A DNA stretch of 64,000 bases from a virus: IMG/VR virus record IMGVR_UViG_3300031703_000003, positions 1-64,000 of that record; one strand, given 5' to 3'. Every line of letters begins with the position of its first letter. Within the stretch, counting starts at the first letter, position 1. The position numbers and the translations under genes were made by a program. Below, in pieces: positions 46,896 to 55,805 of the stretch. Under the pieces are notes generated by a model. That model was not told the origin of the DNA and ran no database searches. It saw nothing but the letters and a program-made list of their open reading frames with translations.

Positions 46896-47348
46896 TTGAG
46901 CAGTGAAAGCAAAACTAGCAACTGGACTTATAACAATGTAGCAGTTGATGAACTGCCGGTAGATGTTGAAGGGTTTGTATATTTAATTACAAACCTTACT
47001 AACAACCGTAAGTATATAGGTAAGAAGTTAGCAAGGTTTAAAACAACTAAGCCTCCTCTTAAAGGAAGAAAGAATAAGAGACGAGGCACAAAGGAAAGTG
47101 ATTGGAGGACCTATTGGGGTTCTTCAGATCATTTGAATGCAGATTTATTAATGTTAGGTGAAGAAAGCTTCACTAGAGAAATTATACATTACTGTCCTAG
47201 CAGAGGAGTATTAAGTTACTTAGAAGCAAAAGAACAGTTTGATCGTAAAGTTTTAGAATCAGATGATTACTACAACGGTATTATTAATGTGAGAGTTGGA
47301 AGTTCTAAGATTCTCACAGAGCATTTAAGAAAGGTCGACAAGCTATAG
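46896..47348 (+). CDS. GIY-YIG nuclease-like protein
   Basis: A 150-residue protein with GFVYLITNLTNNRKYIGKKL, the GIY-YIG pattern, and a YWGSSDHL block; EAKEQFDRKVLE may supply the metal-binding Glu. Members are UvrC-like or Seg-type endonucleases. It starts with TTG at 46896, preceded by AGAAG, and is 11 bases after gp46, so is probably expressed with it. It might be a repair nuclease or a free-standing mobile nuclease. Confidence 0.75.
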   Translation: MSSESKTSNWTYNNVAVDELPVDVEGFVYLITNLTNNRKYIGKKLARFKTTKPPLKGRKNKRRGTKESDWRTYWGSSDHLNADLLMLGEESFTREIIHYCPSRGVLSYLEAKEQFDRKVLESDDYYNGIINVRVGSSKILTEHLRKVDKL

Positions 47349-48461: not shown

Positions 48462-48478
48462 CACATTATCGTGTTTTA
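48460..48478 (+). terminator. Weak terminator-like hairpin
   Basis: AACAC (48460-48464) and GTGTT (48471-48475) with a 6-base loop are followed by TTTAG. It begins on the stop codon of the plus-strand gene, between convergent genes. The stem is short. Confidence 0.3.
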
Positions 48479-48696
48479 GCTGCTTTTGCAGCCGCGTTAG
48501 ATTCTTCTTTGTTTTTGTTTAATCGTTCTACAAATAATGCCAACGCATCAACAGGCATTGTCATTATTTCATTGTATGAAACTAAACCTCCCGATTTGAT
48601 AACTAAATCAAAATAGCTAGACTCTGTTGCTTTTAAGTCATTGTTGTAACGTTCAACAATTTCATATATTTCACTGGGTTGTCGAGACGCTATCAA
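48466..48696 (-). CDS. Downstream half of a probable -1 frameshift product of gp26 (tail-assembly chaperone-like)
   Basis: This 76-residue frame has no ATG start near its beginning; the first possible start is a TTG (48696) inside the gp26 stop region and without a ribosome binding site. It lies in the -1 frame of gp26 and is open across the slippery site, so it is best read as an extension of gp26. It is helical and charged: PSEIYEIVERYNNDLKATES, MPVDALALFVERLNKNKEE, and Ala/Lys-rich end. Position relative to gp26 and the tape-measure genes fits the T4 gp51 or the T part of lambda GT. Independent translation is possible but less likely. Confidence 0.6.
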   Translation of the reverse strand: MIASRQPSEIYEIVERYNNDLKATESSYFDLVIKSGGLVSYNEIMTMPVDALALFVERLNKNKEESNAAAKAAKTR

Positions 48697-48711
48697 CCCG
48701 CGAAAAAATTT
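48676..48711 (-). promoter_or_regulatory. Programmed -1 ribosomal frameshift signal
   Basis: Minus strand, gp26 frame: GCA AAT TTT TTC GCG GGT TGA. A_AAT_TTT (48711-48705) is a canonical X_XXY_YYZ heptamer; the overlapping T_TTT_TTC is a second one. Five bases on, GGGTTG (48699-48694) pairs with CAACCC (48681-48676), a perfect 6-base stem around a 12-base loop. The stop codon TGA of gp26 falls in this stem. The -1 frame is open on both sides. Confidence 0.75.
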
Positions 48712-49523
48712 GCAAGATCCAAGTCAATGGTAGTTTCCCACTCGTGTCCACAATCTTGGCATTTTGCGTTAAACGATGTATCAATTTGATTGTCGCTTAG
48801 ATCTTCTACGCATGTCTTAATTAAATCATAATCAGACTTTGTAATTGACTGTAACCATTCTAGTATAGTAGCATAGTCAACAGTTGCTTCTGACTCAGGC
48901 GCAGTAACACTAGTAATTGAGTTAGCAATCAACTTCACTGTAATGTCTGCAATTTCAATAAACGTTTCACCAAATCTACGTTGGCGTTCTTCGTCATCTA
49001 ATTCAGCGTCACTCAAGTTCTCAATTAACTTTTGTTGCTTAATACGCTGTAGTTGAAGCCTAGTGCGATCGTATAAGTTATACGGCTTGCACGAAAGGTT
49101 AAACCCGTTGTCAAAATTAACCTCGTTTGAGCTCTCATTTAATGTTACAGTACCTAGTAACGCATTGGTACTGATGCTTAATTGGTTCATGTGATCGCAT
49201 TTTGGACATTTTATATCAACATCAATTGCTTCACCGTAACTTGCTTGTCTAATAGCAATTAGTACAACCATTAGATCATTCACTGGCATTTCGTGTGGAT
49301 CTCCGATACCTGGCGCACAACTTTTAATTAAACTAAAAGTAGCTTCACCGTTGAACAATGCATCTGGTGTCTTAGATACAAGTTCATCTCTTGCTGTCAT
49401 ACTGTATACAGCAAGTTCACCGTCTACACTTAATGTTGGCTTTGTATTATAATACCTGCCGCCACTTGGCAGTGCAACATATAACGCAGGCTTTCTATAT
49501 GCCTGAATAAGAGGATTTGTCAT
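48693..49523 (-). CDS. 26: gp26-like baseplate hub/tail assembly protein
   Basis: A 276-residue homologue of the T4 gp26 family (T4 base plate protein family). It has VALPSGGRYYN near the N-terminus, FSLIKSCAPGIGDPHEMPVND, and two zinc-type pairs, CPKCDHM near residue 108 and CQDCGHEWE near 257, and ends in ANFFAG. The start ATG 49523 has GGAG 10 bases upstream; an ATG at 49535 would leave no site. A late promoter (49558-49565) gives a leader of about 30 bases. At its end is a strong -1 frameshift signal that would make a 352-residue fusion. Confidence 0.75.
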   Translation of the reverse strand: MTNPLIQAYRKPALYVALPSGGRYYNTKPTLSVDGELAVYSMTARDELVSKTPDALFNGEATFSLIKSCAPGIGDPHEMPVNDLMVVLIAIRQASYGEAIDVDIKCPKCDHMNQLSISTNALLGTVTLNESSNEVNFDNGFNLSCKPYNLYDRTRLQLQRIKQQKLIENLSDAELDDEERQRRFGETFIEIADITVKLIANSITSVTAPESEATVDYATILEWLQSITKSDYDLIKTCVEDLSDNQIDTSFNAKCQDCGHEWETTIDLDLANFFAG

Positions 49524-49597: not shown

Positions 49598-52500
49598 ATG
49601 GATCAAGAACTAATACAGCAGGCAATACAGCAAATTCACGCACAATATCCGTGGGCCAGCGAAGATACAGTACAACGAATCGCACAATTGAGCAGAAGCA
49701 GCAGCATCAAGACTACTGCATTAGCTGTTGCAATACAGCAAGTAGCAGGCGCCGCTGATGCAAAGCAACTAGAAACCTACATAAAAAATGCAACACAAGA
49801 TTTAAATCGAAGTTTAGCAGATTCTAACAGAACAACTAATGCAATTGACAAGCACACACGTAACTTGGGCAGCAGTTTAATGTCCAAATCAAGCGGACTT
49901 GAAAATATGACCGAGCTTGCTTCGGCTGGATCAGAGGCAATGAACGCAGCTGCGCATGGATTAACAGACATGTTACCAGGAAGAGCAAAAGCATTTAAGT
50001 GGGCCGCTACGTCTACTACAGGAGCAGCAGTTGCTTTAACAGGCATTGCAGCAGTGTTTGCTAAACTAATTAGTAGCCAAGAAAAACAATTACGAGCAAT
50101 GATTGACTTAGGCGTTGTAATGGGAGACGTTGATAATTATACAGAAATGCGTGGACAAGCAGCCGCATTTGGTATGTCTCTTGGTGATTATCAAGCAATA
50201 TTACAACAGACAGGTGCAGTTATAACATCAACATCTGGAAGCATGATTGAAGGATCAGGTCGCATGTTTAGATTCTTAACTGATGATAACATGGTAAAAA
50301 GTGTTAAGAACTTTGGATACACACCAAAGGAAACCGCGGCATTGTTAGCAGATGAGACCGCGCAATTGTTTGCTTTAAACGAAATTAACACACTTGGAGC
50401 AGTAGAACAGAAAAAAGTAATTAATAGTTTCGAGGGCGCTAACCAAATGGGTTTATACTTAGCAGACACGCTTGGTGTTCAGCGTTCAGCTATGTTAGCA
50501 TCGAGGCAGCTACTGAGAGAAAATCAAGACTATCAGTTAGCATTTGTACAAAATACAAAATATTTAAACGAAACATTCGGTGATGGCGCTGCAGCAAGAA
50601 GCAGAGAAGGCGCAGATTTCCTAATGATGCTAGCGTCTGGCACAATGGGAGACACGTTTGCAGGACAACTAGCTGATGTAATAGCAGGCACTACTGCTGA
50701 TATACAGTTTGATCGTAGTGCAGTTAACAACATGCTTGATCCACAATTTACAGAAATGCTACAAGGACTTGGACCTAGTGTATTCCAAGGAGTAGTAAAA
50801 TTAATAGAAGACAATGCAATTGGTTCAATAAAAACTCCAGAAGATATGGCAACAAGATACACTGAAATACTTAAACTTATAAAAGGTTCATCTGCATTGT
50901 TAGGTACAAGCTCATTTGCAGATGATGTAAACATGGCTATTGCTACAGCAACAACAGTGCCTCTTGCGTTTCTAGAAGGAACTGCGGTTGAAATAAAAGC
51001 ACGACTCGAAGCCGCACAATCAAAAGTTGATGGCGCAGACGACAGTATAGAAATAGTAGGATCTGTGTCTAAGGCATTCATGCAAGGACTGCACACTGTA
51101 ACGCCAGGATTTAGTTCAATGGGAACTGTAATGACTGTTATGGAAAATTCAGTTGGCACTTTCACAGATTTCTGGTTAGATGTATTTGGATCAGGCAGCA
51201 GCAGTTCAATGACAGACGTCATGACAGACTTTCAACGAGATTCAGCAAACGCTTACCTAGCAGCCCCTGGTTTTAACGTCAATGATAATTTGCCTATTCG
51301 TACAAACACATCTGTTAGTGGAACACTGACAGTGGAACAAGCAACAACTAGTGTCAGTTCCATTACTGATATAGTAAATAAAGCACAACAAGAACATGAT
51401 TCTCTTGTGGATCAATTGAATAACTTCGAAGACGGCAGAGAAGTAGATCAAGTACAGGTAGAATTACTTAAACAAAATATAATAGATGCCAGAGCAAAGC
51501 TACAAACTATTAGGTTAGACGAATTTGCAAAATCTAAAAGCAGAGAAACATTAATAAAAGACTTAATGGAAACAGGCTATAACATACACAGCGATATTAG
51601 ATCAATTGCGTTAGAAAACAAACGTAACGACTTAGTTGACATTGAGGCTGCAATAGAAAAAGCAAAGATTGAAGGCGAAACAGCTACAGTTACCGCGCTA
51701 GAACAAGAAAGAACACAAGCACAAACTATAGTAAGCGATGCTATACTTAAAGTTACTGAACTAGAAAAGAAAGCAGAAGAAAATCAATTAGAACAAGATT
51801 CAGCAGCTGAAGCTGCAATATTAGCACAACAACGATTCAGAGATCAACACATTGCAATTGATATATTAAAAGAACAACTAACAGCCGCAAATGATCCAGA
51901 TAAGTCGGCGTATGTAGCATTGGAAAATGTGCTAATTGCAAATAATGTGCTCTTAACTCAAAAGCAAGCGGCATTAAATGATGCATTAGTAGTGCTCAAT
52001 CAGACTAAAAATCAAACACCTGCTACTGTAACAACTAGTAGTAATTTCGAAGCAGGCGCATCATTGCAAGGTGTAATGTTAGCTGAACTTACTAAACAAG
52101 GAATAACTGATCCAACAGCACAAGCTAATATACTAGCTATGATACAAGGTGAATCAGGTTGGCAAATGCAATCAGAACGCAGTTATAAAAACACAGACAA
52201 CGATAGAATTCGATCAGCAATGGGTAACAGAGTACAACATCTTAATGAGTTTCAGCTTACACAGTTAAAGCAAAACGACCGCGAGTTTTTTGATGTAGTA
52301 TACAGCAATATAGGCGGATATGATTACAGAGGACGAGGTTTTATTCAACTTACTGGTGAACAGAATTATAAATTAGTAGGTGAGATGATTGGTCAGGATT
52401 TACTTGGCAATCCAGATTTAATGAATACTCCGGAAATTGCCGCCCAGGCAAGTGCTGCATACTTTAATCTCCCATGGTGGCAAAAATATCAAGATAATCT

Positions 52501-52873
52501 CGATAACATGTATACAGCATACAAAGTTGTATATGGAATAGACCCTAGAGACATGGCGCCAGGCGCAGCACAGGATATGAGATTAACTGATATTGCAGAA
52601 CGCCAGGTATTTGCAGGTGAATATTCACAAGCATTGAATTCAGGAAAGCTATCAGCAGCTAATACAATTGCACCAGCAGCAATCGATGCACAGACAAAGA
52701 TTAGATCTCTTCAACATGATATTTCAATGATCATAGACGAAGACGGCGATGGAATAAATACAGCTACAAAGGAATTATCAAATGACCAACTAGGAACATT
52801 GATAGCACTAGAACGTCAACTGACTGCTGAAATTGAAACCTTAGCTAAGTTAATGGATACAAGCGGAGCATAG
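49598..52873 (+). CDS. Tape-measure-like protein with C-terminal GH19 (chitinase/lysozyme-type) domain
   Basis: A 1091-residue protein, far longer than T4 gp29 (590). N-terminal block YPWASEDTVQRIAQLS is shared with the next gene. Residues about 130-160 are a hydrophobic segment (GAAVALTGIAAVFAKLI), as in tape-measure proteins, and 590-790 are coiled-coil-like with many Gln, Glu, Ala. Residues about 825-1010 form a glycoside hydrolase 19-like domain: AMIQGESGWQMQSERSYKNTD (catalytic Glu), GYDYRGRGFIQLTGEQNYK (family signature) and NTPEIAAQASAAYF. This domain would cut the peptidoglycan sugar backbone at infection. Late promoter upstream. Confidence 0.75.
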   Translation: MDQELIQQAIQQIHAQYPWASEDTVQRIAQLSRSSSIKTTALAVAIQQVAGAADAKQLETYIKNATQDLNRSLADSNRTTNAIDKHTRNLGSSLMSKSSGLENMTELASAGSEAMNAAAHGLTDMLPGRAKAFKWAATSTTGAAVALTGIAAVFAKLISSQEKQLRAMIDLGVVMGDVDNYTEMRGQAAAFGMSLGDYQAILQQTGAVITSTSGSMIEGSGRMFRFLTDDNMVKSVKNFGYTPKETAALLADETAQLFALNEINTLGAVEQKKVINSFEGANQMGLYLADTLGVQRSAMLASRQLLRENQDYQLAFVQNTKYLNETFGDGAAARSREGADFLMMLASGTMGDTFAGQLADVIAGTTADIQFDRSAVNNMLDPQFTEMLQGLGPSVFQGVVKLIEDNAIGSIKTPEDMATRYTEILKLIKGSSALLGTSSFADDVNMAIATATTVPLAFLEGTAVEIKARLEAAQSKVDGADDSIEIVGSVSKAFMQGLHTVTPGFSSMGTVMTVMENSVGTFTDFWLDVFGSGSSSSMTDVMTDFQRDSANAYLAAPGFNVNDNLPIRTNTSVSGTLTVEQATTSVSSITDIVNKAQQEHDSLVDQLNNFEDGREVDQVQVELLKQNIIDARAKLQTIRLDEFAKSKSRETLIKDLMETGYNIHSDIRSIALENKRNDLVDIEAAIEKAKIEGETATVTALEQERTQAQTIVSDAILKVTELEKKAEENQLEQDSAAEAAILAQQRFRDQHIAIDILKEQLTAANDPDKSAYVALENVLIANNVLLTQKQAALNDALVVLNQTKNQTPATVTTSSNFEAGASLQGVMLAELTKQGITDPTAQANILAMIQGESGWQMQSERSYKNTDNDRIRSAMGNRVQHLNEFQLTQLKQNDREFFDVVYSNIGGYDYRGRGFIQLTGEQNYKLVGEMIGQDLLGNPDLMNTPEIAAQASAAYFNLPWWQKYQDNLDNMYTAYKVVYGIDPRDMAPGAAQDMRLTDIAERQVFAGEYSQALNSGKLSAANTIAPAAIDAQTKIRSLQHDISMIIDEDGDGINTATKELSNDQLGTLIALERQLTAEIETLAKLMDTSGA

Positions 52874-52874
52874 C

Positions 52875-55805
52875 ATGGCAGAAAAAACAAACAACATTAC
52901 ATTACCAACTGGCGACACAGTATCTATACCTGCCTGGGCTAGCGAAGAAACAATGAATCGAGTTGCTTCATATATGTCAGCTACTAACAAAACAGACCAG
53001 CAATTTGTAAAGCTAATGAAGGGAATGGGCAGCGACATGAACTCGTTGCAAAAAACTATTGCAAGCATGGTAGATGCAACTCAGCGCGACAACGCTCAAG
53101 ACCAAGTACAACAAGAAAGCAATGAAGAATTTAGTAGCAAAGTAGTAAAAGCATCAAAGGGAATAAACAAAGTAATGGGCTTCTTTGACCAAGCAGATAA
53201 GCCACTGACTGCATTAACTACAGGCGCTAGCAGCCTTGTGTCAGCTTCACAAAAATCTAAAACTGGAATATTAAATTTTTCTAGCATGATGGATACTGGT
53301 AGCGCAGGAATGGCAGCACTTGGCACTGCGGGAAATGTTGCAATTGACGCAGTACTTGCATACGCAGGCTGGAATGCTGCAAAACTAGAACAGTTCGCAG
53401 TTGCTCAGTCAAAAATAATAGACGCGGGTGTATTGTACGGTGAAGGCGCATCTGCATTTGACGATATAAGAAAGCGCACAATTGATTCTGGTAATACATA
53501 CACTTCGTTGATAGACAACGTGCATCAGTTTGGAGAAGGGATGCTAGGACTCGGCGACACAATGGGCGCTGGCGTAAGTACATTTACAAAGTTTTATGCA
53601 GCATTGGACCAGACAGCAGAAGGCTTAGGCGATTTAGGATTAAAATCAGTTGATATGCAAAAAGCATATGCAGAGTATATATCTTATTCGCGTAGAACAG
53701 GAAGAATTAACAAAGACTTAAACAACAGTGCAAGCCAAGTAAACAAGAGATTCATTGATTTACAAATAGAAGCAGGCGCAGTTGCAAGTCTAACATCATT
53801 AGAACGATCTGAAGCAATGAATCGTTCACTGCAATCAGTTGATCAGTTCGGTGAAGCCGCACAAATGACTCTAAGGCAACACGGGTTACCAGGTCATGCA
53901 GATGTATTAGAAGCAATCACAATGCAACTTGGAAGAGTGGCACCTGATATGAAGATGATGCAAACAATACTAGATGCGTACCAGCGCGAAGCATTTGAAA
54001 AAGCAGGTAATGGCAACATGGCAGATTTTGATATATCTGCAAGAATAGAAACAATGATGCCAGGGCTAACAGCCGCAGTAAGCAATGTAATGCCTGGATT
54101 TATTAATGGATTAGAAGAATTAACACGTAGCGGAACAGCAAGTGCAGACGACATATCTGGTTATGTTGCAAAGGCAATAAAAGCTGCAGATGTGGAAATT
54201 CGTTTAGCATCACAAGGCTCATCAGCTGACAGTGTAGCTGGTATGGTATCTGAACTTCAGACAGCAGCAATTACCGTGAATCGACAACAAGGAAATTTAG
54301 CAGAAGATGGTGCATTAGACCAAGCTATACTAGAACAACGTAATAATTTAAAATCTGCAGGATTAGTTACAACACAAATGAATAACATGACTACACGGTT
54401 CTTGCAATTACAAGAAACATTAACAATGGATATGGAAACAACCGCAGGCATGTTTGATAAACTAAATACCGTGTTAGCAGGAAGTAAAGAAAAACTCCAA
54501 AAGCTTTTGAAATTCGCTGGCGTTGATAATAATAACGATTTTGGTGGAATCGATGGATCTGATCCAACTGCAAAAACAACATCATTAAACGGCAATGTAG
54601 TAGACAATGGTACGTATGTTTCGCCTGTATTAAATAACAGTTCAACTGATACAGCAGGGTTTACCGGAGACGCAACTGAATTAACAAGTGGTACTGGATT
54701 GGATATAAACACAGACACTGCTACTAATACAGCATTGGATTCTACTATGGCAACTTTAATTAGTAAAGATATGCTTACAGTTTCTGATTTTACAGATTTT
54801 ACACAAATATATAATGTTGAAAACACTGTTGCACAATTAAATTCACTTACGCCAGAAATGCGAAGACGCGCAACAGGCGCACTTGTTGATTTTGAAAAAC
54901 AGTACCAGGGCACTGATATTAAATTAATGATCACAGACGGATTTAGAAGTAACACACGAAGCAACCAGTTAAACAGTAGCGGTATAACAGCAGCACCGGG
55001 TGGAAGCAGTTGGCACAATTATGGCTTAGCATTTGATGCACTCGGTGTACAAAACAGCGAAATAATTGAAAACAACAACGGCGGATTTTACAAAGGCCCA
55101 AATTCTATCCTTGAAGGAATAATGAATAAGCACGGACTTGATAATGTGCAAGGTGTAAACGACCCAGGCCATTTCCAAGCAATAGAAACATCGGCTGTTG
55201 TACCAAGCAATATCAAAACAGGCGTAGTTACACCAATTGCCGCAGTACCATTGTGGCACAACTTTAGTAATCCAACAAGTGAAACAGCTGACGCAGGAAC
55301 AAGAAGCAACTCAACTACAGCTAGTGCTTCAAAATCTGAAATAACAATTGCCAAAGAAGTATGGGTGCCAGGCACCCAATTCACAGAAAATCAATATGCT
55401 GCTGTTACAACAAGCAAAGACCTAGGAAATGAAATAAGTCCTGAAATACAAGTTGCGTATGATTTAGGTCCTAAACCAAGACGTGCAGGCGGCCAAGTTG
55501 CAAGTGGAGCCCCTTACATAGTTGGAGATCAAAATGGATTAGATAGTGCTGAACTATTTGTTCCAGATGGCGCTGGAAGTGTAATGAATAACACTAGCTT
55601 GATGCAACTAATTAAATCTATTAGCGAAAATAGGTTGACAGATACGTCATCAGGTAATATAATTAAGAATAGTACAGACCTCTCTGAGTTGTTGCATAGC
55701 AAAGAAGCCGTTGTTCAAACGCTTAAAACATTACAAACTATCGTAAAACGGTTGAATAATACGCAAAATCAAGCGATTGTAACCGACATGACTAACTCGA
55801 GATAA
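52875..55805 (+). CDS. Tape-measure-like protein with M15 (VanY-type) peptidase domain
   Basis: A 976-residue protein, tandem paralogue of the previous gene. It shares the start IPAWASEETMNRVASYMSAT and a hydrophobic segment (AAIDAVLAYAGW region near residue 155). Residues about 655-775 form an M15/VanY-like peptidase: ITDGFRSNTRSNQL, SSWHNYGLAFDAL (HxxGxAxD zinc ligands) and DPGHFQAIE (third His). The C-terminal PRRAGGQVASGAPYIVGDQNG and AELFVPDGAGSVMNN are a common ending of tape-measure proteins. It starts one base after the previous stop (GGAGCATAGC). The peptidase would cut peptide crosslinks. Confidence 0.8.
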   Translation: MAEKTNNITLPTGDTVSIPAWASEETMNRVASYMSATNKTDQQFVKLMKGMGSDMNSLQKTIASMVDATQRDNAQDQVQQESNEEFSSKVVKASKGINKVMGFFDQADKPLTALTTGASSLVSASQKSKTGILNFSSMMDTGSAGMAALGTAGNVAIDAVLAYAGWNAAKLEQFAVAQSKIIDAGVLYGEGASAFDDIRKRTIDSGNTYTSLIDNVHQFGEGMLGLGDTMGAGVSTFTKFYAALDQTAEGLGDLGLKSVDMQKAYAEYISYSRRTGRINKDLNNSASQVNKRFIDLQIEAGAVASLTSLERSEAMNRSLQSVDQFGEAAQMTLRQHGLPGHADVLEAITMQLGRVAPDMKMMQTILDAYQREAFEKAGNGNMADFDISARIETMMPGLTAAVSNVMPGFINGLEELTRSGTASADDISGYVAKAIKAADVEIRLASQGSSADSVAGMVSELQTAAITVNRQQGNLAEDGALDQAILEQRNNLKSAGLVTTQMNNMTTRFLQLQETLTMDMETTAGMFDKLNTVLAGSKEKLQKLLKFAGVDNNNDFGGIDGSDPTAKTTSLNGNVVDNGTYVSPVLNNSSTDTAGFTGDATELTSGTGLDINTDTATNTALDSTMATLISKDMLTVSDFTDFTQIYNVENTVAQLNSLTPEMRRRATGALVDFEKQYQGTDIKLMITDGFRSNTRSNQLNSSGITAAPGGSSWHNYGLAFDALGVQNSEIIENNNGGFYKGPNSILEGIMNKHGLDNVQGVNDPGHFQAIETSAVVPSNIKTGVVTPIAAVPLWHNFSNPTSETADAGTRSNSTTASASKSEITIAKEVWVPGTQFTENQYAAVTTSKDLGNEISPEIQVAYDLGPKPRRAGGQVASGAPYIVGDQNGLDSAELFVPDGAGSVMNNTSLMQLIKSISENRLTDTSSGNIIKNSTDLSELLHSKEAVVQTLKTLQTIVKRLNNTQNQAIVTDMTNSR

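Follow-up and report, generated by a model that had tools for sequence, protein, structure and literature searches.

A study by Vladimirov and colleagues reportedly found frameshifting to be conserved in several groups of T4-like phages, with T4 itself using genes 26 and 51. This study dealt with the tail assembly chaperones of T4-like phages (Vladimirov, Gautam, Davidson, Virology 2022;566:9-15, doi 10.1016/j.virol.2021.11.003), and it is cited for poly-T slippery signals in the TAC-N genes of these phages (PMC12846349), as well as for some T4-like phages having one short and one long fused gene (PMC10885494). In the Vandenendeviridae and Andersonviridae, the chaperone gene carries a conserved GTTTTT near the 3′ end of TAC-N, with an open -1 frame (PMC12846349). 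The lambda G/GT products act on the tape measure protein and are absent from the virion (PMC5009743). T4 gp26 and gp51 are listed as hub assembly chaperones (PMC3004832), and the gp51 of cyanophages lacks the first ~200 residues (Sullivan et al. 2010, PMC3037559).

Here, we analysed a 64,000-nt stretch of DNA from a marine T4-like phage (positions 1 to 64,000 of the IMG/VR record IMGVR_UViG_3300031703_000003), referred to below in its entirety as the window. Its gp26 homologue lies on the minus strand at 48693..49523, with 276 codons from the ATG at 49523 to the TGA at 48693..48695, and has a Shine-Dalgarno-like GGAG at 49533-49530 ahead of the ATG. The protein matched PF12322 T4_baseplate (E=1.9e-23, 83.7 bits against a Pfam cut-off of 24.5) and phrog_150 (E=1.4e-22). 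About 35 bases 5′ of the gene, at 49565-49558, we observed GATAAATA, which we take to resemble the T4 late promoter TATAAATA.

The 3′ end of gp26 reads GCA AAT TTT TTC GCG GGT TGA. It holds two overlapping slippery heptamers on the minus strand, A_AAT_TTT (48705..48711) and T_TTT_TTC (48702..48708, Phe-Phe codons), with the same protein resulting from either. After a one-base back-slip past TTC, the reading becomes CGC GGG TTG ATA and continues for 78 codons to the TAA at 48468-48466. This -1 frame extension (TAC-C) occupies 48466..48702 on the minus strand, and the fusion (M + 273 + 78) comes to 352 residues, which confirms the proposal of a first-pass annotation that the -1 frame is open past the gp26 stop.

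The same annotation had read gp26 and the extension as a lambda G/GT-like frameshift pair, and this is the reading that the comparative evidence supports best, with the amendments given below. We consider it very probable, on this evidence, that the two constitute the short and long forms of a tail assembly chaperone made through a programmed -1 frameshift. Most ribosomes would end at the TGA, giving a short form of 276 residues (TAC-N). Others, fewer in number, would slip back one base on T_TTT_TTC, with A_AAT_TTT possibly helping or sharing the task and a hairpin just downstream, holding the 0-frame stop, aiding the slip; these ribosomes would read the -1 frame, and the resulting long form (TAC-NC, 352 residues) would end in a helical C-terminal domain. 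Following the model of lambda gpG and gpGT, coating of the tape measure protein would fall to the short form, and the scarce long form would bring in the tail-tube subunits. We infer the occurrence of the shift, its efficiency and the chaperone function from the comparisons that follow.

A tblastn search with gp26 retrieved 67 phage records, chiefly of jumbo phages, with 23-32% identity among the 60 matches listed. T_TTT_TTC was present in 61/61 distinct related junctions from IMG/VR uncultured viral contigs, these being the junctions whose Phe-Phe pair was located automatically; a 62nd (L115), outside the range covered by the script, reads AGT TTT TTC too. In all 17 cultured jumbo phages, the invariant Phe-Phe pair is encoded by T_TTT_TTC or T_TTT_TTT (the latter in two). 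The heptamer was also found in 59/59 cyanophage-type contigs, one reading TTTTTTT, and phiAS5, PhiW-14, Bellamy, Bhz51, LPCS28 and Melnitz agree with this pattern. T_TTT_TTC/T_TTT_TTT is hence kept in the window's clade and in the jumbo phages examined, down to ~24% identity. The -1 ORF is open for 58-83 aa in relatives having the site, the exception (L150, among the 59 cyanophage-type contigs) being a 30-aa ORF near a contig end. Overall, both the window's own clade and the jumbo phages keep the heptamer and the -1 ORF and lack a conserved start.

A_AAT is kept in 48/50 marine relatives, and most jumbo relatives have other bases before T_TTT_TTC than those of A_AAT_TTT. A_AAT_TTT was therefore rejected as the sole or general shift site, being absent in 2/50 marine relatives and not conserved in the jumbo relatives. 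The first-pass annotation had named this heptamer as the slippery sequence: it is indeed present at 48711-48705, but is conserved only in the window's clade, the universal site being T_TTT_TTC. Slippage on T_TTT_TTC, or on the two overlapping heptamers together, is more likely than on A_AAT_TTT by itself.

Among the junctions that we looked at, those of Cygsa01, Vibrio phage D508 and the Ackermannviridae are without the heptamer. Pseudomonas phage Cygsa01 (L031 4309) has ATT TTC ACC TAATG and D508 (L212 1323) has CTT TTC AAG TAATG, with an ATG overlapping the gp26 stop in each; these two phages may have switched to translating the extension by coupling, judging from the overlap. In the Ackermannviridae (CBA120 and relatives; L211 1370-1450, L215-L229), gp26 ends in GAR ATT TTC ATT TAA TTT TTG AAA TTG, an almost invariant stretch of DNA. 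A conserved -1 ORF (HLIFEIDLLSYF...MPWHLD) is found there, with no near ATG and no canonical X_XXY_YYZ heptamer.

Downstream of the heptamers, an RNA hairpin encloses the 0-frame stop (48676..48699, minus strand), with arms GGGTTG at 48699-48694 and CAACCC at 48681-48676. The coordinates of this stem and its overlap with the stop were as first annotated; the 5-base spacer holds when counted from A_AAT_TTT, while from T_TTT_TTC the spacer is 2 nt, versus the usual 5-9 nt. The five core pairs form in 43/43 distinct marine junctions. One of them varies (U-A in 16, C-G in 20, U-G in 7, broken in 0), and the covariation rests mainly on this pair because the other four are invariant. The covariation score was 0.155, compared with a shuffled mean of 0.088 (0/500 shuffles reached the observed value) and at most 0.074 for slid versions. 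The varying pair underwent ~16 state changes spread over the gp26 tree, 10 of which were UA<->CG double changes. Its two codons change synonymously (Leu CTG/TTG and Gln CAG/CAA) and are linked (Fisher P=6e-7, a value that ignores relatedness). An outer pair adds 4 A-U cases and is unpaired in 16. Folding of the 35-nt stretch gave -11.6 kcal/mol (z = -2.0); the predicted window hairpin is by itself of moderate stability, and the case for it is its conservation and covariation.

Cyanophages have another, longer hairpin in most cases, and strong downstream hairpins were predicted for PA5oct and Atu_ph07 (z -4.0 and -3.3, respectively). Fold scoring of the jumbo junctions revealed no downstream hairpin in many of these relatives. 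Since hairpins vary by group and are often missing in jumbo phages, the heptamer counts as the general signal and the hairpin as a feature of particular lineages. The window's clade combines overlapping heptamers (A_AAT_TTT_TTC) with a conserved hairpin 2 nt on that contains the stop. It is a speculative and rather unlikely idea that this is an unusual signal layout in which pausing at the hairpin and at termination jointly sets the short:long ratio, in a manner undescribed for other tail chaperone genes.

Slippage of the RNA polymerase on the T6 run, instead of the ribosome, could also change the frame, and the conservation of the six-T run agrees with this. We regard it as very unlikely, as six T are short for efficient bacterial polymerase slippage, the run is never longer (T6 then C in 61/61), the Phe-Phe codon phase is invariant and the conserved, covarying hairpin suits ribosomal frameshifting.

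Alternatively, the extension could be a separate small protein, translated from the TTG at 48696-48694 or by re-initiation or coupling at the gp26 stop. An ORF starting at this TTG does exist, and an ATG overlaps the gp26 stop in 121Q, Atu_ph07, Phosso and Cygsa01, so that separate translation of the extension is possible in those phages; in 47/59 cyanophage-type contigs, an ATG lies three codons into the extension. However, no Shine-Dalgarno sequence was seen ahead of the TTG, and among the 50 marine relatives 26 have TTG at this position and 24 have CTG. Because CTG replaces it in about half of the relatives, the TTG is not a conserved start and was rejected as the start of the extension. 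Moreover, the -1 ORF of PA5oct has no ATG, GTG or TTG anywhere in frame, the heptamer is retained in jumbo phages and cyanophages also when an ATG is present, and T4 gp51 has the same kind of extension fused to its domain. A separate protein is thus very improbable, and the small ORF lacks a conserved start of its own, in line with the first-pass annotation, which gave it no start beyond the TTG.

The arrangement at the end of gp26 was also compared with the other ORFs of the window. Across 32 ORFs with 250 codons or more (17,292 codons in total, some of the ORFs being possibly spurious), the only in-frame T_TTT_TTC is the one at the gp26 end. Within the final ~12 codons of these ORFs, the gp26 heptamer pair is the only one to open a long -1 ORF (78-79 codons); the sole other ORF-end slippery heptamer opening a -1 frame, GGGCCCA, opens 3 codons. 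The heptamer with its open -1 ORF is not a chance arrangement. When the extensions of relatives were compared with the window sequence, changes at -1-frame codon positions 1/2/3 numbered 888/444/1309, a pattern in which the -1 frame changes like coding sequence. Chance, or a relic of a broken fused gene, has a negligible probability, given the same layout in >130 distinct junctions and a -1 frame under coding constraint.

The programmed frameshift also agrees with the relationship of gp26 to its T4 counterparts. T4 gp26 and gp51 both matched PF12322 (E=9e-64 and 4e-52, respectively), and gp51 consists of a PF12322 domain (residues 1-201) followed by a C-terminal extension. On phrog_150, gp51 spans the whole profile and T4 gp26 stops at position 235 of 282; no slippery site was seen at the end of T4 gp26. 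Homology to the -1 extension of cyanophages covers the C-terminal 48 residues of gp51 (phrog_634 and phrog_150; alignment z 7-12 for 19/20 sequences), and the cyanophage extension matches phrog_634, whose annotation is 'baseplate hub assembly catalyst'. For the window extension, single-sequence comparison with the T4 gp51 C-terminus was not significant, and window-type extensions matched that C-terminus weakly by profile (E=0.003-0.02). PF12322 was single-copy in 16 jumbo genomes, the cyanophage, phiAS5, Cygsa01 and the window's record, a 71-kb fragment, versus two copies in T4; SCTP-2 was too diverged to score. These counts support a single gene with a frameshift for most groups, against a pair of genes for T4. 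The frameshift would account for the single PF12322 copy of those genomes, as well as for the cyanophage 'gp51' that looks ~200 residues short (PMC3037559).

Searched alone against Pfam and PHROG, the window extension gave only matches with E > 0.01, which were taken as chance. Window-type and jumbo extensions nevertheless share phrog_18291, a family of unknown function to which 27 of 44 alignment members match. It covers residues 13-70 of jumbo extensions (L009 5822-6034, L016 4831-5040, L029 4687-4863) and seems to derive from ORFs that had been truncated at internal ATGs. We suggest that phrog_18291 represents the chaperone C-terminal domain.

The predicted structure of gp26 (pLDDT 85) had T4-like hub assembly proteins as its best matches among predicted structures. 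Against the PDB, the model gave nothing significant with Foldseek and the sequence gave no match. Tail assembly chaperones are sequence-diverse and need not share a fold to be classed as such. The extension was predicted to be helical (pLDDT 87; helices 9-36, 43-48 and 51-77), and nothing significant was found with this model in BFVD. In PA5oct, gp26 carries no virion ESI-MS/MS note and four structural neighbours carry one, which is only suggestive of its absence from the virion.

Two large genes are transcribed divergently from gp26 on the plus strand, and the first-pass annotation referred to divergent tape measure genes. The two neighbours are probably of this type, with direct support for the second only. 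Its 976-aa product (52875..55805) is similar to the PA5oct virion protein gp335 (E=3e-6), which is encoded divergently from the adjoining gp26 in PA5oct; this similarity and synteny make it a probable tape measure protein. It also has a C-terminal motif, GGxVxxGxPYxVGD...ELFVP, that we presume to recall tape measure proteins. The 1091-aa product of the first gene (49598..52873) has a GH19 domain (PF00182, E=1.3e-8) and showed no similarity to gp335 by BLASTP; from its sequence, it is possibly a tape measure protein or a tail lysozyme. In both products of 49598-55805, a WASE(D/E)T motif lies close to the N-terminus and a domain resembling peptidoglycan hydrolases lies inside the protein (GH19 and VanY/M15, the latter below the Pfam cut-off). 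The pair possibly encodes two tape-measure-type proteins. Elsewhere in the window, a 150-aa ORF at 46896-47348 has a VYLITN...YIGKK pattern like that of GIY-YIG endonucleases; its place is occupied by endonuclease VII in jumbo relatives.

With the frameshift, a large uncultured marine T4-like clade would be counted with the phages in which a single gene yields both tail chaperone forms. So would many cultured jumbo phages, in which the extension is either called a hypothetical protein or left unannotated. A rule for annotation follows: where gp26 ends with T_TTT_TTC, a joined long form would be expected.

Compared with known systems, the locus as read here resembles lambda G/GT in having a short chaperone and a rare -1 extension (PMC5009743). 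Unlike in lambda, gp26 of the window is divergent from the probable tape measure genes and not directly upstream of them. The slippery sequence, tail type and protein family of lambda also differ from those of gp26. The Vandenendeviridae and Andersonviridae, likened to the window by gene layout, share the poly-T motif at the TAC-N end and the -1 frame, but are phage families other than that of the window. T4 gp26 and gp51 belong to PF12322, as does the window gp26; in contrast to the window, T4 makes its short and long forms from two divergent genes, with two PF12322 copies. The T4-like chaperones of Vladimirov et al., as far as the citing papers describe them, are like those of the window in having a gp26-family short form and a long form with a C-terminal extension. 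The window frameshift is therefore not new in kind, because frameshifting was published for T4-like phages in 2022, as that work is cited. What the marine clade adds is detail, namely a covarying hairpin and overlapping slippery sites.
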